Shown piece by piece: positions 11,998 to 37,833 of a stretch of DNA of 37,940 nucleotides. The notes under the pieces are model-generated. The model saw nothing but the letters and a program-made list of their open reading frames with translations, ran no database searches and was not told the DNA's origin. The number at the start of each line of letters is the position of its first letter. Within the stretch, counting starts at the first letter, position 1. This DNA comes from Cyanobacteria bacterium MH1_Bin12 (GTDB lineage Bacteria > Cyanobacteriota > Cyanobacteriia > Cyanobacteriales > Cyanobacteriaceae): assembly GCA_011088145.1 (NCBI GenBank), contig JAALKG010000008.1:1-37940 (forward strand). The letters are read 5' to 3'. A program made the translations under genes and the position numbers.

Positions 11998-13225
11998 TTA
12001 GACAAGTTTTGGTCGGACTAAATAATTCCATTGAGGTAGATATTCATCAAAAACAAGATTGATTTTTTCTTTCCAGTCAGTGGCTACTTTTCTTCCTGTT
12101 TTATACACTTTATCAACTATTCGAGAAAAAACTTTTAATCCCGAACTTGTTTTTGCTTTTGCCATTAAGTTTTTCACTGTTTGATAACTATCAAAAATTA
12201 CCCCCGTACAAGCACGAGTAATATGGGGAAATAAGCGGTGTTCAATGGGATTATATTTTGAGGTGTAAGGAGGATAATGGGCTACTCTGATTTCGACTTT
12301 TAATTGACTCGATAGTTTGCTCAGTTCTTGTTTAAATAGGTGGGAACGAGAACTATTACTGCCTCCACCGTCACACAACAGTAAAATCGAATCAGCCAAC
12401 GGATAAAGTTTGCAACCGTAATTAATCCACCACTGACCAATACAATCACAGGCAAACTCACTCGTATCGTCAGAATTACCCAGATTCATGTATCCGAGAT
12501 TGTGTTTGAGATCATATAGACCATGAGGTATTACTTTCCCTGTTGCTAGAGAAGACCAATCATGGTCATAGACTTCTATTGGCTGTTGATTTCTGGTTTT
12601 TCCCTCTCGGTACAACTTTCCTAATTTTTCTTTTTTTTTGTGTCCATACTGATAATTGGATTTTGTTGGTTTTGATAAGATTTAATCAAACCATTAATTT
12701 TTTCAAATTGTTCATTTCGGTGAGGATTGTTACCTGTGGCTTTTGTCTTGACTGCTTTGCGGCGACAAAAATTATGATTTGATAATAATTGGTCGATGAC
12801 TGTAACACTAACTTTTATTTGTTCTTCTTCAAACAGTAAATCAGCTATTTGTTGACGAGTCAAATCAAATGTGTCCATCTAATTGATTCATTCATCGGTG
12901 AACCAGCTATGTGTCTATCGATAACTCTTAAAAATGCTTCATTAATGCCATCAATTGTTTCGATGGACTTTTTTCTTCCTGCTCCCTTGTTTCTAATACG
13001 TTGTTCATTGATCAAATCAAGGGATTCAAGCTCAATTAACCCTTTGTTTACGGTTTCTCGTCGACATCCTAATAATCGGGCAATATAACTAATACCCCCA
13101 TACCCCAATTTTTCTGCTTCCAATGCCGCATAACGCCTTCGTTGTTTTTCTGATAGAGTGTGATAGTATCTAATCATTTTTTCCTCTATTTTGAGATCAT
13201 AAGGTTTTATTGGCTTCATAATCAT
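11998..13225 (-). mobile_element. ISAzo13-family transposase, broken into three frames
   Basis: Three successive minus-strand frames add up to one ISAzo13-type DDE transposase. They are 13225-12860 (SEKQRRRYAALEAEKLGYGG, RLLGCRRETV), 12878-12621 (LTRQQIADLL, FCRRKAVKT, NPIISMDTKKK) and 12615-11998 (EVYDHDW, GKVIPHGLYDLKHN, TSEFACDCIGQWW, LLLCDGGGSN, HYPPYTSKYNPIEHRLFPH, WNYLVRP). The first break is a 5-bp tandem duplication (TCAAA TCAAA, 12860-12869). The second is at a T9 run (12631-12639), where one more base, or a -1 slip at A-AAA-AAG, would restore the frame. Element ends are not sharply defined. It truncates a hybrid-kinase gene on its left. Confidence 0.85.
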
Positions 13226-18221: not shown

Positions 18222-21200
18222 CTACAAATTAATCCCCAATACTTGAGTATAAGCCCCTTTGGCCTGAGTTACCCCGATTGTTCTTTGTGAAGCTTCAATC
18301 ATTGGTCTTCTTAAACTAACCACGATAAATTGAGCTTGTTGGGCTTGTTGTTGAATCATTTTTGATAGTTTTTCCACATTGGCACCATCTAAAAACATAT
18401 CCACTTCATCAAAAGCATAAAAAGGAGAAGGACGGTATCTTTGTAAGGCAAAAATAAAACTTAAAGCCGTTAAAGATTTTTCTCCTCCAGACATGGAACT
18501 TAATCTTTGTACCGCCTTACCCTTAGGATGGGCAACCAAAGTTAAACCACCATTAAAAGGATTAGTAGGATCGTCTAATTTTAAATATCCATCTCCATCA
18601 GATAAAGTCGCAAAAATAGTTTTAAAATTCTCATTAACTGCATCAAAAGACTCTTTAAATGCTCTAAATCTTAAAGTAGTAAAATTCTCAACTCTTAATA
18701 ATAATTCTGTCCTTTCTCCTTCTAAAGTACCTAATTTATCGGATAATTCTGTTAATCGTTCTTGATTTTTTTCATATTGTTCTAACGCTAACATATTGAC
18801 TGGTTCTAAAGCTTCTAATTTTTTCTCGATTCGTTTCATTTCTTTATTTATTTTATCTAGCTTTTCTAACAAAATTTCTGTGGTAATTTTATGTTGTTCT
18901 TGTAACCAAGGAATCTCGGGTAAAGGTTCAGGTAATTCTTCTTTAATCTCATTAGTATTTGCTTCTATCTCCTGCAATTTAGTTTGTAATTCTTGATGTT
19001 GTAAAACTAATTTCTCTAACTTCCACTGTATTTTCTGATCATCGCTTTCCAAATTTTTGACTTCTAATTCTGTCTTATCTCTTTCTCCTTTAATACCTTC
19101 AAGTTTTTTGGCTAATTGTTGAAAGATAATTTCATGTTCGGTAATTCTTTCTTTAATTGTTTTTAATTCTTTGGCAATATCAATACCTTCTTGTTTTAAC
19201 TCATTTATTTCTTGGAGAATATTTTGGATACTTTCTTCTTTTTGCTTAATATTATTAGCGAAGTCTTTGTGTTGATTCACTAATATTTGTAAGTCTTCTT
19301 TTTGTTGATTTAATCTCGATTGTTTTTCCTCTAATACGGCTTCTTTATCGTTAATAATTTTTTGTAATTTCTGCCATTCTTCGTTATCATAAGTTTCTTC
19401 TAATTTTTTAAGTTCTAGTTGAGTTATTTCTAATTCATTTCTTAATAAAGGGATGTTTTCCGTTAATTGAGTTAATTCTTGTGTATCTTTAACCAATTGT
19501 TCATAATGTTGGGCATTGCTCTTAACTATCTTTTCTTTTTCTCTCTCCAAACGAGATATTTCTCCTTGATATTGTTCAAGAATTAACAGTGTTTTTTGTC
19601 TTGTTTGTCTTTGATTACTTAAGTCTTCTGCCCATATCTTTGTTTGTTCCTTCTTTTGTGATATTTTTAAATTAAGCTGGGGTATTATATTTTCAATTTC
19701 CGTAATTCGATCGCGTAATTCTATAAATTCTGATGATTCACTGTTAGACACACGACCAAAGCTTAAAGAAGAACGTCGAGAAATACTACCTCCTGTCATC
19801 GCGCCACTGGCTTCTAACAACTCTCCTTCGATGGTCACCATACGATATTTGCCGATAAAGTTTCGAGCAGAGCCTAAATCTTCAAAGACAACAGTATTAC
19901 CAAAAACATAGGCAAAGATAGACTTATACTGAGGCTCAAAATCGACTAAATTAATCGCCCAATCAATGACACCTCTGATGGTCATAATATTGGTATTGGT
20001 TTCTAGACGGGGAGATTTGATTTTATTCAGAGGTAAAAAAGTGGCTCTTCCTCCTCGCTCTTGTTTGAGTAATTTAATTGCCATCGAAGCAATACTATCG
20101 TCTTCCACTACGATGAAACCTAAACGACTTCCTGCGGCGGTTTCTAATGCTCTTTGGTAACGAGATTCCACTTCCCCTAATTGAGCAACTAAACCGCATA
20201 CTCCTGGTAAATCAGAGTTGAGGATTATTTGACTAGCATAAGTACCTTGAGCTTCTTGTTGTGCTTGTTTCGTCGCCTCTAATTTATCGAGTTTTCTTTG
20301 TTTATCTCTTTGCTCTAGCTGTAAACGATTAATTGTCTCTTGATTTAAGACAATATCACTTTCAACTTTGGCTAACTTTTCAGCAATATTTTGAATCTCT
20401 GATTCAGATTGGTTAATTTCGGTGGAGAGTTCGGTAATTTGTGCTTTTTTATTAGTTAATTCTCCATCAAATTCGGCTAACTGTTCATTTTCGACTTTAA
20501 TTGTTGACTGTAATTGTTGACATCTTTGGGTTAATAAAGCTTCTTTAGTTAACTGAGGATTTAATTCTTTTTGAACGTTACTAATTATTTGATTTAATTG
20601 GGTTTGTTTTGTTACCCATACTTGAGATTTAGAAGCAATTTTTTGAGCTTCTTGTTTATTAACTAATAAGTCATCTTTAACTAGATTAAAATCATTTTCT
20701 AATTCAGGAATAATAACTTTTTGAAAATGTTCAATCTCTGTTGATAGTTGGTCAATATTCCTTTGACTTTGATTTATATCCTCTTTCGCTCTGTTTTGCT
20801 TTGTTCCTAGTTCCTCTTGTATTTTAACTAATTCTTCTTGTCTTTTTTCTAACTGTTGTCTTCTCGCTTTTTCCGTCGCTAACTTAGATGCGATCGCTAT
20901 TTTTTCCTCTTCACCTAAAGCTTGAATTTCAATATTTAGTTTACCTAAATTATTTTGAGCAACTAATAATTTATTGTGAATATTTTGCTGATCATTAACT
21001 GCTTTTTCCTGCTGATTATTAATGTTAATCAACTGTTGTTTAATCTCTTCCTCTTGCTGTTGTAAATAACGCCAATTAATAACAACTTGCCATTGTTTTT
21101 TCTCCTGCATTTGAGCTTTTAAAACTTGATATTTAGCCGCTTTCTCTGAATCTTCTTTTAACTTGGCACTATTTTCGACTAATTCTTGTTGGATAATATG

Positions 21201-21851
21201 ACATTTCTCTTCCCTTTCCTTAACATCATCTAAAGTACTTCTAGTTTGCTCAATTTTTCGATCGAATTCTGCCACCCCAGCCAACTCATCAATTATTTCT
21301 CTTCTTTCACGGGCATTCATAGAAATAATGCGAGTGACATCCCCTTGCAAAACGACATTATAACCTTCAGGATAAATTCTTAACCGTTGTAAATACTCAT
21401 GTAGTTGCGAAGCAGTAGAAGGCTCATCATTAATATAAAAAGTAGAAGAATAACTCCCTCCTTTGGTGACTCGCAAACGTCGAGTTATTTTCAACTCCGA
21501 CATGGACTTTAAAAGATTATTTTCTTGTTTCTCATTACTACTAACTTCTTGACTAAGTTCCGAATCATTCTCTAACTTATCTAAATCACCTAAATCAAAA
21601 GTAACAGAGACGATCGTCTCCAATGCTTTACCATTACTTTGATGGCTATTATTAATTAAATCAGGCAATCTATCCGCTCTCATCCCCTTTGAACTAGCTA
21701 ACCCTAAGCAAAACAACAAAGCATCTAAAATATTTGATTTCCCCGAACCATTAGGGCCAGAAATTACTGTAAACCCGTCAAGAAAAGGTACAGAATTGCT
21801 ACCACCAAAAGATTTGAAGCGAGATAACTCTACCCGTTTAACATAAACCAT
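18222..21851 (-). CDS. smc: chromosome segregation protein SMC
   Basis: SMC is the condensin ATPase that forms a ring with ScpA/ScpB and compacts and separates chromosomes. The N-terminal head has KRVELSRFKSFGG and Walker A GPNGSGKSNILDALLFCLG. Long coiled coils enclose the hinge (about residues 520-680, GVCGLVAQLGEVESRYQRAL, GASGAMTGG-like). The C-terminal head has the ABC signature LSSMSGGEKSLTALSFIFAL and Walker B PFYAFDEVDMFLD. I took the start MVYVKRVELSRFKSFG at 21851 rather than the longer frame from 21881, because the family begins there. The product is about 1209 residues, normal size. Confidence 0.97.
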   Translation of the reverse strand: MVYVKRVELSRFKSFGGSNSVPFLDGFTVISGPNGSGKSNILDALLFCLGLASSKGMRADRLPDLINNSHQSNGKALETIVSVTFDLGDLDKLENDSELSQEVSSNEKQENNLLKSMSELKITRRLRVTKGGSYSSTFYINDEPSTASQLHEYLQRLRIYPEGYNVVLQGDVTRIISMNARERREIIDELAGVAEFDRKIEQTRSTLDDVKEREEKCHIIQQELVENSAKLKEDSEKAAKYQVLKAQMQEKKQWQVVINWRYLQQQEEEIKQQLININNQQEKAVNDQQNIHNKLLVAQNNLGKLNIEIQALGEEEKIAIASKLATEKARRQQLEKRQEELVKIQEELGTKQNRAKEDINQSQRNIDQLSTEIEHFQKVIIPELENDFNLVKDDLLVNKQEAQKIASKSQVWVTKQTQLNQIISNVQKELNPQLTKEALLTQRCQQLQSTIKVENEQLAEFDGELTNKKAQITELSTEINQSESEIQNIAEKLAKVESDIVLNQETINRLQLEQRDKQRKLDKLEATKQAQQEAQGTYASQIILNSDLPGVCGLVAQLGEVESRYQRALETAAGSRLGFIVVEDDSIASMAIKLLKQERGGRATFLPLNKIKSPRLETNTNIMTIRGVIDWAINLVDFEPQYKSIFAYVFGNTVVFEDLGSARNFIGKYRMVTIEGELLEASGAMTGGSISRRSSLSFGRVSNSESSEFIELRDRITEIENIIPQLNLKISQKKEQTKIWAEDLSNQRQTRQKTLLILEQYQGEISRLEREKEKIVKSNAQHYEQLVKDTQELTQLTENIPLLRNELEITQLELKKLEETYDNEEWQKLQKIINDKEAVLEEKQSRLNQQKEDLQILVNQHKDFANNIKQKEESIQNILQEINELKQEGIDIAKELKTIKERITEHEIIFQQLAKKLEGIKGERDKTELEVKNLESDDQKIQWKLEKLVLQHQELQTKLQEIEANTNEIKEELPEPLPEIPWLQEQHKITTEILLEKLDKINKEMKRIEKKLEALEPVNMLALEQYEKNQERLTELSDKLGTLEGERTELLLRVENFTTLRFRAFKESFDAVNENFKTIFATLSDGDGYLKLDDPTNPFNGGLTLVAHPKGKAVQRLSSMSGGEKSLTALSFIFALQRYRPSPFYAFDEVDMFLDGANVEKLSKMIQQQAQQAQFIVVSLRRPMIEASQRTIGVTQAKGAYTQVLGINL

Positions 21852-22579
21852 AGATAATTTTTTGCGATGAACAATTGACAACTGACAATTGACAGTTAAC
21901 CTCTACCTCAAATGAGAAGTAAAAAAACATAATCGAACAATTCTCCTCTGGAAATAAAAGGATTATATTGCTATATTTCTTCGGTCACAAAGTTACCGCA
22001 AAATGGTAATTTTTGCAATTAAAAACGATACAGTCAAAAAAAAGCTAAATATTAACAACTAACTTTTTCTGTTTTTAGTTTGATTACAGAAATAATATAT
22101 AAGAATTGTTTAATTTGGTGAAGAACTTTTCCATTGATGATATACAAGTTTTGACTCTTAGAGATAACTGATTTTAATATGTTGGATTTTATTCAAAAGT
22201 CGATCTATAAAGATAAATTCATATTCTTTAATACCTTGTCATCAAAAAGTTATAAAGATTATTAATTGAGAATTGATCTATCCAAAAATTCTTATTAAAA
22301 GATTAATTTATCAGTAAAAATTATAAAATTTGGACTTCTCAATATACATCTTTTTTGAGGAAAACTTAATATTTTAATTGCCATTTGACTCATGAAAAAG
22401 TAAATATTCAGAAAAGTAAAATTATGTAACAAAGAATTAAGATACTAGGGAAATTACTAATTTGGGAAAAACAAACATGGTATTTTCATTTTAGACTTGA
22501 TCTATAAAATAGTAATCTAAAAGAAAATATTTCAAGTTAACTACAAAATCAGTCAAAAAATCAAATAATAAGATAAATA
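21852..22579. other. long intergenic region upstream of the rod-linker cluster
   Basis: 728 AT-rich bases without a gene. It must hold the smc promoter and the promoter or leader of the linker cluster. A heptamer repeat array lies at 21871-21898. I looked for CcaR-type direct repeats (CTTTNCNATTT) and did not find a good match by eye. Confidence 0.5.
21871..21898. repeat. degenerate 7-bp tandem repeat (4 units)
   Basis: The units ACAATTG-ACAACTG-ACAATTG-ACAGTTA follow each other directly upstream of smc. Similar heptamer arrays occur at 30124, 30245 and 32635. Confidence 0.75.
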
Positions 22580-23347
22580 ATGGCAAGTTTAACAAGTCCA
22601 TTCGTTAACGACCCTATTGAGCTGCGTAAAAATTTTTCCGAAGATGATTTACAATTAGTCATCTCCGCAGTTTATAAGCAAGTATTAGGTAATATTGGCT
22701 TAATGGAAAGTCAGCGTTTAACCAGTGCAGAATCTCTATTAAGAAACGGAGACATTTCCGTACGTAATTTTGTCAGAATGGTTGCTCAATCTGAATTATA
22801 TCAGTCTAAATTTTTTAGCTCTAGTTCTCCTTATCGCTTTATTGAATTAAATTGTAAGCATTTATTAGGAAGAGCACCTGAAGACCAAGCTGAAATTTCT
22901 TCCCATGTTCAAACTTATAATGGAGAGGGATATGTAGTTGAAATCAATTCTTATATTGATAGTGAAGAATACAACAACAATTTTGGCGAAAATACTGTAC
23001 CTTATCCTCGTAGTGTCAGCAGTCAAACAGGCATTAAAAACATTGTTTTTAACCGTACTGTTTCCTTGTTAGGAGGTCGTGCTACTAGTGATAATAGTGG
23101 TCAAGCACAACTTACTTCTAGTATTGGTTCTAATATTTCTCAAAAAATCAAATTGGCATCTTCTGGTGTGAACAAAGGTTATGCTAACACAAGTAAAAAA
23201 TTTTGTATCGTTGTTAGTAAATCTGGTAAAACTCCAGTTAATAAACTAAGTAATGCTTCTTACGTTGTAAGTTATAGCAGCTTGTCAAAAAATATCCAAA
23301 ATATTCAGAAAAAAGGTGGTACGATCGTCAGTATATCTGAAGTGTAA
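22580..23347 (+). CDS. phycobilisome rod linker with CpcD domain (phycoerythrin-type)
   Basis: This 255-residue rod linker joins hexamers in a phycobilisome rod and tunes their energy transfer. The PBS-linker domain spans about residues 18-150 (VISAVYKQVLGNIGLMESQR, LTSAESLLRNGDISVRNFVR, ELNCKHLLGRAPEDQAEI, YIDSEEYNNNFGENTVPYPR). A C-terminal CpcD-like capping domain covers about 205-255 (KKFCIVVSKS ... NIQNIQKKGGTIVSI). The start MASLTSPF and the GDISVRNFVR pattern look closer to phycoerythrin linkers (CpeC/D/E) than CpcC, but I cannot say which. It heads the cluster linker-cpeR-linker-cpcL, 309 bases before cpeR. Confidence 0.88.
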   Translation: MASLTSPFVNDPIELRKNFSEDDLQLVISAVYKQVLGNIGLMESQRLTSAESLLRNGDISVRNFVRMVAQSELYQSKFFSSSSPYRFIELNCKHLLGRAPEDQAEISSHVQTYNGEGYVVEINSYIDSEEYNNNFGENTVPYPRSVSSQTGIKNIVFNRTVSLLGGRATSDNSGQAQLTSSIGSNISQKIKLASSGVNKGYANTSKKFCIVVSKSGKTPVNKLSNASYVVSYSSLSKNIQNIQKKGGTIVSISEV

Positions 23348-23656
23348 CCACCATATATCGTTAAAAATTGAATATATAAACTTAGACTATTAAATCACAT
23401 CGGATATCATAAAAAAAACAAAGATGATACCTTCGAGTTAGACGACTCGGTTTTCCTATGGGAGACTTGCTATTTATAAATTACCAGTACTGTTTTAAAA
23501 TTGTCTTAACATATAGATAAATTAACTAGTATGAGATTTTGATGCAAGTCTCTAAGTCTAAGTTTTAAAAAAAATAATCATTTATATCCATATAAAAGAA
23601 AATTATTAACTTTTCATTTTCCGCAGAATAACTAATTCGTAATATTGCCCATATAA
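23348..23656 (+). promoter_or_regulatory. possible structured leader of cpeR
   Basis: The 309-base gap holds a small hairpin CGAGT-TAGACG-ACTCG (23434-23449) followed by GTTTT. It also holds a 9-bp perfect inverted pair GAGACTTGC (23462-23470) and GCAAGTCTC (23544-23552) around a 73-base AT-rich loop, followed by an A8 run. The structure could be an attenuator or an RNA end within the operon. This is inference. Confidence 0.4.
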
Positions 23657-23962
23657 ATGTTACCTCCCGTAGCGAATAAAAAGATACAGGCATGGATTCG
23701 TACTCGTCATCTAGTTTGTTCAGAAAATGTTTTAGTTTTTGAAACTTTTGATGCTCCTACTCTGGATAAATTTGAAGAATGTATTAGTAGTTTAGGTGGT
23801 GAACTAATTTCTGTAGAACCTTTAAAAAAAGTTTGGCGTGGTAATCATCGGCAAGTAATTCTTTATCAAGCAAAAGCTATTTTAAATTCTTCGAATCACC
23901 CCATCAAACAATATTGGTATGAAAAGGGTAGTTTTTATACTCGTTTTGATGAGCGTTGTTAA
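23657..23962 (+). CDS. cpeR: CpeR-family regulator of phycoerythrin genes
   Basis: This 101-residue protein matches my memory of the CpeR family: MLPPxAxKKIxxWIRxRH at the start, then FETFDAPTLDKFEECISSLGG, SVEPLKKVWRGNHRQVILYQ and IKQYWYEKGSFYTRFDER. In Fremyella diplosiphon CpeR is needed to express cpeBA and is encoded in the linker operon cpeCDESTR. In Nostoc punctiforme cpeR1 sits with cpeC and cpcG2 under CcaS/CcaR control. Here it lies between two rod linkers, 51 bases before the second, probably co-transcribed. The mechanism of CpeR is not clear from sequence. Confidence 0.8.
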   Translation: MLPPVANKKIQAWIRTRHLVCSENVLVFETFDAPTLDKFEECISSLGGELISVEPLKKVWRGNHRQVILYQAKAILNSSNHPIKQYWYEKGSFYTRFDERC

Positions 23963-24013
23963 ATCTAAATCAACTATTTTTAACAAAAAATCAACAATCA
24001 TAAATCAAAAATA

Positions 24014-24958
24014 ATGTTAACTCAAATATTGAATTCTAAGCAAAATATTTCTTATTTTCCAACCAACAGTTCCACTGATGAAGTAGAAATAACCATTAAA
24101 GCTGTTTATAAACAAGTTTTAGGTAATGCTCATGTCATGGAAAGTGAAAGACTCATTTCTCTGGAGTCTAAACTAAAAAATGGAGAATTTACTGTTAGAG
24201 AATTTGTGAGACAACTTGCCAAATCAGAACTTTATCGTCGTTTATTTTTTGACAATTGTCCTCGTTACCGTTCTATTGAATTAAATTTTAAACATTTATT
24301 AGGACGTGCCCCCTCCGATTATACCGAGACTTTTGATCATAGCCAAATACTTGATCGAGAAGGATTTTTTGCAGATATAGATGCATATATTGATAGTGAT
24401 GAATATCAATCTATCTTTGGTGAAAATATTGTTCCTTATACTCGTGGTTATACTACACAAACAGGACAAAAACTACTTGGTTTTGTCAATATGTCTAAAC
24501 TATCAACAAGCCATAGTACTAGTGACAAAGCAGGAGAAACAGGAAATTCATCTAGAGTTCAAAAATTCTTAATGTACAATAACCCAACAGGTACAGCAAG
24601 ATCAACGGATGTTCAAACATTATTAAATGAAGTTTTCAAACCCAAACCAAAAGAAATTCCTGTTGTTGTTTCTCCTGCTTGGCAACCAACAAATAATCAA
24701 GCACAAAAACAAGAATCAATTCAATCATTGGAAAAACGATTTAGAGAATTACAAACACTAGCCTCCATTGGCAGTGGAATATTAGGCAATTGGTCAACTA
24801 ATCAAACTTCCACAGGCGATTTGAATACTAGTGCTTACAAAAGACCTCAAAATGATGAGCAAATTATTGCCTCTCTTAAAAGCCAAATAGCTGACTTAGA
24901 AAGAATTGCTGCTTTTGCTGAAACACAAATTAATAAATGGCGTAGTAAAACCTTTTAA
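24014..24958 (+). CDS. rod linker with novel C-terminal duplicated helix
   Basis: This 314-residue protein has an N-terminal PBS-linker domain (about residues 24-150: ITIKAVYKQVLGNAHVMESE, FTVREFVRQLAKSELYRR, LNFKHLLGRAPSDYTETF, YIDSDEYQSIFGENIVPYTR). The usual CpcD cap is missing. Instead there is a Ser/Thr-rich linker (about 165-235) and two similar helical segments, SLEKRFRELQTLASIGSG-ILGNW (about 236-258) and SLKSQIADLERIAAFAET-QINKW (about 288-310). These look like an internal repeat. It may be a rod-end or attachment linker; that is inference. It starts 51 bases after cpeR and lies 176 bases before cpcL. Confidence 0.85.
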   Translation: MLTQILNSKQNISYFPTNSSTDEVEITIKAVYKQVLGNAHVMESERLISLESKLKNGEFTVREFVRQLAKSELYRRLFFDNCPRYRSIELNFKHLLGRAPSDYTETFDHSQILDREGFFADIDAYIDSDEYQSIFGENIVPYTRGYTTQTGQKLLGFVNMSKLSTSHSTSDKAGETGNSSRVQKFLMYNNPTGTARSTDVQTLLNEVFKPKPKEIPVVVSPAWQPTNNQAQKQESIQSLEKRFRELQTLASIGSGILGNWSTNQTSTGDLNTSAYKRPQNDEQIIASLKSQIADLERIAAFAETQINKWRSKTF

Positions 24959-25134
24959 CCAAGGTAATGAAATAGGTTTAACTCTATGATTAACAATTAC
25001 AATATTGACTGTTACGAATGATTACTTTGTCTAGTCAAAAATACTCGTTGCATATTATTGTAGTTTAGGATAATCACAATTATAAAAAATACTAATTGAC
25101 AATTTAATCATTGTCTATCATTAATTAAAAAAAA

Positions 25135-25860
25135 ATGTCTCTTCCTCTGTTTAATTATTCTTATTCAAGTCAGAATCAACGAGTTAACAGTTATGAAGTC
25201 GGTTCAGAAGAAACACCCATCATTTATAACTTAGATAACGTAATTGATAATACAGATTTTGATAATTTAATTCGCTCAGCTTATGTGCAAATTTTTAATG
25301 AACAACAGTTAATAAAAAGTAACCGTCAAACCTTTTTAGAATCTCAATTAAAAGATAGACAAATTACTGTTAAAGATTTTATTCGTGGTTTGCTTCTTTC
25401 TGACTCTTTCCGCAGACGTAATTATGAAGTTAATAATAATTATCGGTTTGTGGAAATGTGCATTCAACGTGTTCTTGGACGTGAGGTTTATGATGAACAG
25501 GAAAAATTAGCTTGGTCTGTAGTTATTGCCACTAAGGGATTAACAGCATTTGTTGATTCTTTACTAAATAGTGAAGAATACTTTGATCATTTTGGTCTTG
25601 ACACAGTTCCTCATCAAAGAAGAAGAATCTTGCTAGGGCGTGAAGTCGGTGAATTGCCCTTTGCCAGAATGCCTCGTTATGGAAAAGATCATCTTTCTCA
25701 ATTAAAAGCAATGGGATATTTTCCAAAAGTGTGGCAACCTTATTATCCACCTCAATTTGCTCGCACCATAGGTAAATTTATTACTATTGGTGGAGCAGCA
25801 ATTATAGGAATTGGGGTAGTTGCAGTCGCATTATCAGCTTGGGGAATTATTTCGTTATAA
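25135..25860 (+). CDS. cpcL: CpcL (CpcG2) membrane-anchored rod linker
   Basis: This 241-residue CpcG-family linker begins MSLPLFNYSYSSQNQRV, with the linker domain at about 40-165 (SNRQTFLESQLKDRQITVKD, FIRGLLLSDSFRR, NYRFVEMCIQRVLGREVYDE). It ends in a hydrophobic helix (about 218-240, FITIGGAAIIGIGVVAVALS). That C-terminal membrane segment marks CpcL, which anchors core-less phycobilisome rods to the thylakoid and feeds photosystem I, as opposed to CpcG1, which binds the allophycocyanin core. It closes the linker-cpeR-linker-cpcL cluster and is followed by a strong terminator. Confidence 0.92.
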   Translation: MSLPLFNYSYSSQNQRVNSYEVGSEETPIIYNLDNVIDNTDFDNLIRSAYVQIFNEQQLIKSNRQTFLESQLKDRQITVKDFIRGLLLSDSFRRRNYEVNNNYRFVEMCIQRVLGREVYDEQEKLAWSVVIATKGLTAFVDSLLNSEEYFDHFGLDTVPHQRRRILLGREVGELPFARMPRYGKDHLSQLKAMGYFPKVWQPYYPPQFARTIGKFITIGGAAIIGIGVVAVALSAWGIISL

Positions 25861-26025: not shown

Positions 26026-26367
26026 TTAATTTTTTCTTCTACTGCGTTTTGGTTTTGTCGATTTGGAACTGCTCGTTCGTTTAGGTGTCGTTGATTTTGA
26101 GACTTGTTTGACAGGAGCTTTCGTTACAACTTCTCCTTTCGTGCTGGTTGTTTCTGATTTATGAGCGAAAACGTTAACACCAGTAATTTTCCCGCCTAAA
26201 GAAAAAATTTCTCTCATTGCCTGATTCATGCGATTATGAGGTACTTTTATTTGGTAACTACTAACTCTTTTTATACTCTGATTGCAGACTCCCGTTACGT
26301 TAATTTGAACGACACGACCATCATAATTGCTTATTATTGGTGTTTCAACAGTTCTCATTGTTGTCAT
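26026..26367 (-). CDS. CpcD-domain protein with basic C-terminal tail
   Basis: This 113-residue protein has a CpcD-like linker domain at residues about 18-68 (GRVVQINVTGVCNQSIKRVS, SYQIKVPHNRMNQAMREIFS, LGGKITGVNVF), the fold of rod-capping CpcD and of the N-terminal domain of long-form FNR. It then has about 45 residues rich in Lys, Arg, Ser and Thr (KAPVKQVSKSTTPKRTSSSK, then KPKRSRRKN). Ordinary CpcD is about 80 residues and lacks such a tail. The tail could bind membranes, nucleic acid or acidic subunits; that is inference. It faces cpcL tail to tail, in the middle of phycobilisome genes. Confidence 0.75.
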   Translation of the reverse strand: MTTMRTVETPIISNYDGRVVQINVTGVCNQSIKRVSSYQIKVPHNRMNQAMREIFSLGGKITGVNVFAHKSETTSTKGEVVTKAPVKQVSKSTTPKRTSSSKSTKPKRSRRKN

Positions 26368-29279: not shown

Positions 29280-29540
29280 ATGGATTTAATTTTTCTAACT
29301 GCTTCAATTCCTCATACTGCACAATGGAATCCCGGTGTAGGTATTGTAATGATTCTTTGTAACATTTTAGCGATCGCTTTAGGTAAATTGACCATGGCTG
29401 AACCTTCTGCTGAACCTAAACTAAAGAGCTCAAAATTTTTTGGTGGCATGGGATTATCTGCATTGCTGGCTACAACTAGTTTAGGTCATGTAATTGGTTT
29501 TGGTGTGATTTTGGGTTTAGCGAATATAGGTATTCTTTAA
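29280..29540 (+). CDS. psaK: photosystem I subunit PsaK
   Basis: PsaK is a two-helix subunit at the edge of photosystem I. The 86-residue protein shows a start ending in IPHTAQWNPGVGIVMILCNI (helix 1), then AIALGKLTM, a loop AEPSAEPKLKSSKFFGG and a second helix LSALLATTSLGHVIGFGVIL. In Synechocystis PsaK1 and PsaK2 differ in light response and state transitions; I cannot tell which type this is. It has its own terminator. It lies next to the cpc/cpcL block, which also serves photosystem I. Confidence 0.95.
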   Translation: MDLIFLTASIPHTAQWNPGVGIVMILCNILAIALGKLTMAEPSAEPKLKSSKFFGGMGLSALLATTSLGHVIGFGVILGLANIGIL

Positions 29541-37315: not shown

Positions 37316-37833
37316 CAGGGCTTTCTCATAAAAATTGGATCCCCTTTTGGGGTAGGATAGCAGGTTGCCTCATTCACGATTACAAATCTCGCTATCCCTT
37401 ACTCAGATGACATAAATGGAGACCTTACAACTTGATTCAGCTCAAACGAACCTATTGATCTGTGCCCTGAAAGAAAAGCTGCCTGATCCACGTGACAATC
37501 GTGGCAAAAGACATAACTTGGCCTTCATTATCTGCGCTGTCGTGATTGCCATCATGGCTGGACGTGCCACCACATCGAGGATTTTCCGCTTGATCCGCAA
37601 TCGCATTGATTGGTTGGCTCAAATCACCGGAATTGTCGATGCCACACCGATTTCCCGAGCTCATTTACCTCGGCTGCTGGCTCAGGTGATGGCGGGTCTG
37701 CGTACCCTAGCAATGCAGGTGTTTCGCCAGGCTAAAATTCCCAATATGATGGCGGCACTAGATAATTTTTGCGACAGCAATAAGCTGTTGGGGGAATTCT
37801 TGAAAAGGGTAGGATTTTTATGAGAAAGCCCTG
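37316..37833. mobile_element. 518-bp ISAs1-like deletion derivative with 20-bp terminal inverted repeats
   Basis: Perfect inverted repeats CAGGGCTTTCTCATAAAAAT lie at 37316-37335 and 37814-37833, each followed inward by C/T-rich matches (CCCCTTTT / CCCTTTT). Between them is only the N-terminal part of a transposase. The element is clearly GC-richer than the surrounding genome, pointing to an outside origin. Flanking sequences show no clear target duplication. Confidence 0.85.
37416..37823 (+). pseudogene. truncated ISAs1-family transposase
   Basis: The 135-residue frame starts METLQLDSAQTNLLICALKE and shows the ISAs1 N-terminal associated domain: LPDPRDNRGKRHNLAFIICA, VVIAIMAGRATTSRIFRLIR, then PISRAHLPRLLAQV. 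Complete ISAs1 transposases are about 350-400 residues; the DDE catalytic core is missing, and the frame runs straight into the right terminal repeat (EFLKRVGFL). It cannot move itself but may be moved by a full copy. Confidence 0.85.

Follow-up and report, generated by a model that had tools for sequence, protein, structure and literature searches.

The window analysed here, a stretch of 37,940 nucleotides, is the entire contig C119 (JAALKG010000008.1) of the cyanobacterial genome bin MH1_Bin12, which comprises 2.57 Mb in 190 contigs at an estimated completeness of 67.5%. Four open reading frames (ORFs) of this window, all on the plus strand, encode in turn a phycobilisome rod linker, the regulator CpeR, a second rod linker (here called the tail linker), and the linker CpcL, where an earlier reading of the sequence alone (the original prediction) had placed them. 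The gaps between them are 309, 51, and 176 bp in gene order, and minus-strand genes bound the cluster on both sides: to its left lies an SMC-like gene (18222–21881), to its right one that encodes a small CpcD-domain protein (26026–26367). From strand and spacing we infer that the four genes may be co-transcribed as an operon, with two weak hairpins in the first gap as a possible attenuation point. In agreement with the original prediction, no phycobiliprotein subunit genes were found within the window. The features of the cluster are:

22580–23347, plus strand: CpeE-type phycoerythrin rod linker with a pfam00427 and a CpcD domain (Pfam, tree, best matches)
23433–23467, plus strand: two weak terminator-like hairpins in the gap between linker and cpeR (4 sites in the region against 1.9 expected by chance, not significant)
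23657–23962, plus strand: cpeR, by homology an activator of phycoerythrin genes (61–64% identity to cpeR-position proteins, 69–76% within the family)
24014–24958, plus strand: tail linker with pfam00427, a disordered stretch, two helices, and the C-terminal motif E..INKWRSKTF, lacking CpcD (Pfam, AlphaFold, tail profile)
25135–25860, plus strand: cpcL, linker of rod and membrane (photosystem I) (match to 8hfq_n, tree, hydropathy)

CpcD-bearing rod linkers stack hexamers, and the first ORF matched both PBS_linker_poly (E 1.3e-49) and CpcD (E 2.5e-10) in Pfam. We placed it in a tree of 68 linkers, in which the names CpeC, CpeD, and CpeE were given by operon position and not by biochemistry. It lay within the CpeE clade (15 rows, support 98/97), which holds linkers that adjoin cpeT-cpeS-cpeR or stand in the arrangement ccaR|cpeE-cpeR. 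Within that clade it grouped with two linkers, one linked to ccaR in Geminocystis GBBB08 and one that follows cpcL in Symploca SIO1C2 (98/82, inside a group supported at 100/99), and its closest matches were members of the Geminocystis-like family (66–70%).

CpeR is an activator of phycoerythrin genes. The cpeR ORF of the window had no match in Pfam or NCBIfam; its product of 101 residues aligned from end to end, at the lower of the two identities listed above, with the cpeR-position proteins of cpeC-D-E-T-S-R operons, and at the higher with the proteins of same-family genomes. CpeR-like paralogs with 47–53% identity adjoin rod linkers at L186–L195 (genomes G001, G004, G005, and G008–G014), and these family members are mostly without a true cpeR.

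The fourth ORF (241 residues) matched PBS_linker_poly (E 3.1e-44) and has a CpcG-like N terminus. The photosystem I-associated CpcL chain of Synechocystis (8hfq_n) matched it over the full length (E 6.4e-92), with the hydrophobic C terminus also aligned, and its peak 19-residue hydropathy was 2.45, compared with 0.05 in the CpcG of the same genome (contig C73). Judged by these features it is a true CpcL (CpcG2) with a hydrophobic C-terminal membrane helix, and photosystem I binding is predicted; unlike the Synechocystis gene, it sits in a phycoerythrin-type cluster that lacks ccaSR. CpcL proteins tether a rod to the membrane, where it serves photosystem I (PMC10322944, PMC12461855, PMC9415938). 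Pfam, alignments, tree, and hydropathy thus bear out the identification of two rod linkers, CpeR, and CpcL on one strand.

The third ORF (314 residues) matched PBS_linker_poly only (E 1.2e-50). Pfam found no CpcD domain in it, and it therefore departs from the canonical make-up of CpcC and CpeC; in CpcC, pfam00427 is joined to CpcD, which serves as the rod-capping unit (PMC10696076). In our tree such tail linkers formed a clade sister to CpeC, with support of 92/90 for the clade pair and 99/99 for the tail clade. An AlphaFold model (mean pLDDT 62) gave a confident pfam00427 domain, then a disordered region, then two helices predicted with moderate confidence (about 50–71). Near the C terminus, N-K-W-R is invariant across 20 orthologs, and comparison of the tail with PDB, Pfam, and NCBIfam returned generic coiled coils only. 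The predicted coiled-coil tail with its NKWR motif takes the place of CpcD in these proteins. We found no published description of this type of linker.

The original prediction had considered the second linker unusual; it is not peculiar to this cluster, since such linkers follow cpeR in many cyanobacteria. Of the cpeR loci, 75 extended far enough downstream to be read, and in 32 of these a same-strand linker ORF starts no more than 1 kb past the end of cpeR (by family, for instance, Nostocaceae 10/13, Xenococcaceae 4/6, Coleofasciculaceae 4/5, Pleurocapsaceae 3/8, Microcoleaceae 0/11, Calotrichaceae 0/10), and most, not all, of the linkers found behind cpeR carry the tail motif by a strict pattern. 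Searched with a profile of the 40 C-terminal residues, the loci read gave 64 linkers that carry the tail. Most of these proteins, the tail linker of the window included, have it twice, and the final copy is the best conserved. These linkers measure about 340 amino acids (aa) with one linker domain, about 600 aa with two, 732 aa with three, and 2007 aa with seven (L290). Giant linkers with a terminal NKWR tail were found in the Cyanobacteriales genomes G079 and G269 (L290:8317–14340, 2007 aa with seven pfam00427 domains by Pfam, and L305:4004–10033, 2009 aa). By sequence, then, the tail linker belongs to a widespread type and is not a local oddity. In none of the 14 other genomes of the family did we find a tail linker or a second CpcG/CpcL.

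The tail profile also matched the ends of four proteins encoded nearby at some of the loci, which are predicted to contain RHH parts, coiled coils, or both (L101:4247–6325, L120:5934–8120, L069:7880–8533, and L153:7034–7687). Further RHH proteins lie near cpeR or the tail linker at L070:3121–4662 and L074:13791–15773, and others of the RHH/coiled-coil group end in a hydrophobic helix. One tail-bearing linker (L072:6980–8020, 346 aa, genome G019) lies within a phycocyanin operon, cpcBA-linker-lyase-linker, and the tail is therefore not restricted to phycoerythrin clusters.

CpcN of Anthocerotibacter and Glr1262 and Glr2806 of Gloeobacter have pfam00427 without CpcD (PMC10696076, PMC12525769), as does the tail linker. 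The tail linker of the window has one pfam00427 domain, whereas its relatives have two, three, or seven; its nearest neighbour in the tree (from which CpcN was left out) is CpeC; the NKWR coiled-coil tail is undescribed for the other proteins; and the tail linkers come from crown Cyanobacteriales. The five-domain linker CpcN has been held to have no counterpart in crown cyanobacteria (PMC10696076). The tail linkers add to crown cyanobacteria a type whose hexamer-binding domains number one, two, three, or seven and whose coiled-coil tail is conserved.

The original prediction was upheld in relating the cluster to operons of light-colour output: at three loci (L282, L115, and L143), relatives carry the set next to ccaS or ccaR. 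In a genome of another family (G146, L282), the order linker-cpeR-tail linker-cpcL was seen once more, with a CcaS homolog after it (60% identity across 485 aa); the first linker of this set falls in the CpeD clade, not CpeE, so the set is not a strict copy of that in the window. Two Symploca bins (L115 and L143) have all four gene types in a ccaR-divergent operon, cpeC-cpeD-cpcL-cpeE-cpeT-cpeS-cpeR, then a further linker, with a perfect tandem CcaR site, and in the tree the Symploca copies are grouped with cpeE and cpcL of the window. Given the recurrence in L282 and the ccaR-linked Symploca operon, the window cluster reads as a variant of known chromatic-acclimation output operons. Simple inheritance of the four-gene set as a unit from the L282 lineage was rejected, as the linker paralog and the CpcL subclade differ. 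The nearest relatives of the window cpeE and cpeR are in same-family genomes, and the best matches of the tail linker, and several of those of cpcL, are in Symploca genomes; it is likely that an inherited cpeE-cpeR pair was joined by a tail linker and a cpcL of outside origin.

Geminocystis GBBB08 (L076) has the order ccaR | linker-cpeR-ccaS, which agrees with the published cluster descriptions for Geminocystis NIES-3708 and NIES-3709 (PMC4424290, PMC4417701). The light-regulated cpeC(E)-cpeR operon of these two strains shows the order found in the window, and its cpeE and cpeR are the closest relatives of the window genes; unlike the window, their cluster has ccaS and ccaR and no cpcL. A rod linker, CpcL, and CpeR are also grouped without phycobiliprotein subunits in Nostoc punctiforme, in the order cpeC-cpcG2(cpcL)-cpeR1. 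The window differs from that cluster in gene order, in the extra tail linker between cpeR and cpcL, and in having neither a detected ccaS/ccaR pair nor a G-box. In N. punctiforme, CcaSR controls phycoerythrin and cpcL (PMC12461855).

Control by CcaS and CcaR, which the original prediction had suggested for this cluster, did not find support. No orthologs were found in the 67.5% complete bin, where the best matches to Geminocystis queries had 46% (CcaR) and 39% (CcaS) identity, compared with 70–78% and 53–65% for true orthologs in other loci. The tandem CcaR site (G-box) is CTTTCCGATTTCTTTACGATTT (PMC8256508). As a positive control, we found it within two mismatches in 11 of 12 ccaR-divergent promoters, whereas the best site in the window has five mismatches; single G-box halves numbered 25 in the window against 38 expected, fewer than chance. 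The contrast with these controls argues against CcaR control through a tandem G-box. One might still suppose that this is a CcaS/CcaR-controlled operon of type 1 and type 2 chromatic acclimation (CA1 and CA2) whose sensor genes are merely missing from an incomplete assembly, as the sister Geminocystis clusters and the matching set at L282 adjoin such genes and about a third of the genome is absent. We regard this as quite improbable: ccaR and ccaS usually border such an operon, and neither occurs in the sequence on its two sides, which the contig covers; the promoter motif is missing; and the bin contains a different light-sensing system.

That system is rcaE-rcaF-rcaC, which lie together on contig C91 and have the domains expected of type 3 chromatic acclimation (CA3): RcaE is a PAS-GAF-PAS-kinase of 700 aa, RcaF a receiver of 126 aa, and RcaC a receiver-OmpR-HPt-receiver protein of 627 aa. 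Across 591 aa, RcaE is 43% identical to an RcaE-like kinase encoded at L080, and its GAF domain contains the Cys-Leu and VKAKLIVPI stretches common to CcaS and RcaE-type sensors. By its genes, the bin would be that of a CA3 (RcaEFC) species; the cluster has no validated RcaC box. Of 27 species with RcaE, 14 have CpcL genes, frequently within operons believed to be RcaE-modulated (PMC9415938), and RcaEFC control of the window cluster is plausible. In Hydrococcus rivularis (L109:10541–12430) rcaC lies directly 3′ of cpeR, and in UBA11153 (L080:1298–7054) rcaE/rcaC/rcaF-like genes adjoin a cpe operon; the system is therefore physically linked to cpeR in some genomes.

A search of papers for RcaC box sequences returned none. 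We searched for the L-box with the Fremyella consensus, which was not validated at any promoter of the bin. One perfect L-box on contig C7 lies near no pigment gene, is near chance level by a rough estimate, and was not used. The absence of a G-box and of a recognisable L-box (by the Fremyella consensus) would also fit rod-linker genes that are constitutive or under CpeR or nutrient control, in a neighbourhood left over from an older CcaR operon, with CpcL rods always made, as reported for Anabaena; constant CpcL expression in Anabaena 7120 is cited by PMC9415938. This seems unlikely to us, as the linkage of cpeR and tail linker is conserved across families and the RcaEFC set is present, both of which suggest ongoing light control of phycoerythrin.

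The phycoerythrin genes that the original prediction expected elsewhere in the genome are there: cpeBA lie on contig C7, two further phycoerythrin-type rod linkers fall in the CpeC and CpeD clades of the tree, and cpeS/T-type genes and two bilin reductases (pebAB; C29) are present on contigs other than the window. We think that the cluster is probably a compact operon on the output side of green/red chromatic acclimation, with the remodelling of phycobilisome rods as its task; most likely, it enables a cyanobacterium similar to Geminocystis to form additional rods of green-absorbing pigment and to connect rods to photosystem I. CpeR would turn on the distant phycoerythrin genes, the CpeE linker would stack phycoerythrin hexamers, and CpcL would tether a rod to the membrane to serve photosystem I. 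The pfam00427 domain of the tail linker would fill the hexamer cavity; because there is no CpcD and the exit is a coiled coil, the tail may end the rod or tie it to a neighbouring rod or protein. Expressed jointly, the four genes would give longer phycoerythrin rods, changed rod ends, and added membrane-anchored rods. The remodelling toward photosystem I that the original prediction put forward stands as far as CpcL is concerned; of the other genes, the tail linker and CpeR suggest a link to phycoerythrin, and CpcL is the one gene that would carry the photosystem I role. As CcaS/CcaR were not found and RcaE-RcaF-RcaC were, RcaC or a relay through CpeR would be the likeliest regulator, which is the weakest step of the proposal.

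Several observations weigh against an RcaEFC-controlled output operon. The 309 bp gap with its terminator-like hairpins may split the transcription unit; the Fremyella L-box consensus does not occur within two mismatches upstream of 22580, and none stands out at the other cpe/cpc promoters of the bin; ccaS and ccaR may lie in the missing third of the genome, given its completeness; and, because the first linker of L282 belongs to the CpeD clade, the set there and the set in the window may have come together independently. C91 is assigned to the same organism by binning (G+C 34.1% for C91 and 32.2% for the window), in which errors are possible.

A bolder proposal, which we hold to be doubtful, is that tail linkers are an undescribed class in crown cyanobacteria whose NKWR coiled-coil tails, common to the adjoining RHH/coiled-coil proteins, bundle phycoerythrin rods through cross-links or attach them to a partner, and that the one described here, paired with CpcL under RcaEFC, builds phycoerythrin rods for photosystem I. 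If the tail joins or anchors rods, it bears on how phycoerythrin rods end, bundle, or go to photosystem I, and the recurring tail linker is the part of the cluster most worth following. The locus also tests whether CpcL can fall under RcaEFC instead of CcaSR, a question named as open by PMC9415938.

Three features lie to the right of the cluster:

26026–26367, minus strand: small protein with a CpcD domain and a basic tail, encoded convergently to cpcL (Pfam CpcD, E 5.6e-07)
28598–27000, minus strand: cpcE and cpcF (Pfam and NCBIfam searches)
29280–29540, plus strand: psaK paralog (TIGR03049)

Homologs of the small CpcD-domain protein, whose tail is rich in lysine, arginine, and serine, are found inside the cpe operons of L081, L089, L104, and L118; it is possibly a rod-cap linker, and its membership in the module is uncertain. 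The nearby psaK and cpcEF noted by the original prediction are all real genes, but cpcE and cpcF are on the opposite strand. The psaK gene is one of three paralogs in the bin and has 67–73% identity to the psaK genes of L115, L255, and L306, which lie close to cpe or cpcL genes or to a tail linker, compared with 61% and 40% to the other two copies of its own genome. In a search confined to the surroundings of such genes, these relatives were seen in three other genomes only (G178, G216, which holds L115, and G298), and we associate psaK with the module tentatively.

A contig labelled Candidatus Gracilibacteria (L117, a metagenome-assembled genome) carries ccaR, cpe genes, cpeR, and ccaS, and is almost certainly a misbinned cyanobacterial contig. 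ORFs at 11998–13225 and 37416–37823 of the window, L030:9807–10562, and L031:4850–5176 resemble transposase-type repeat fragments by appearance, with similar copies across several contigs of the bin.

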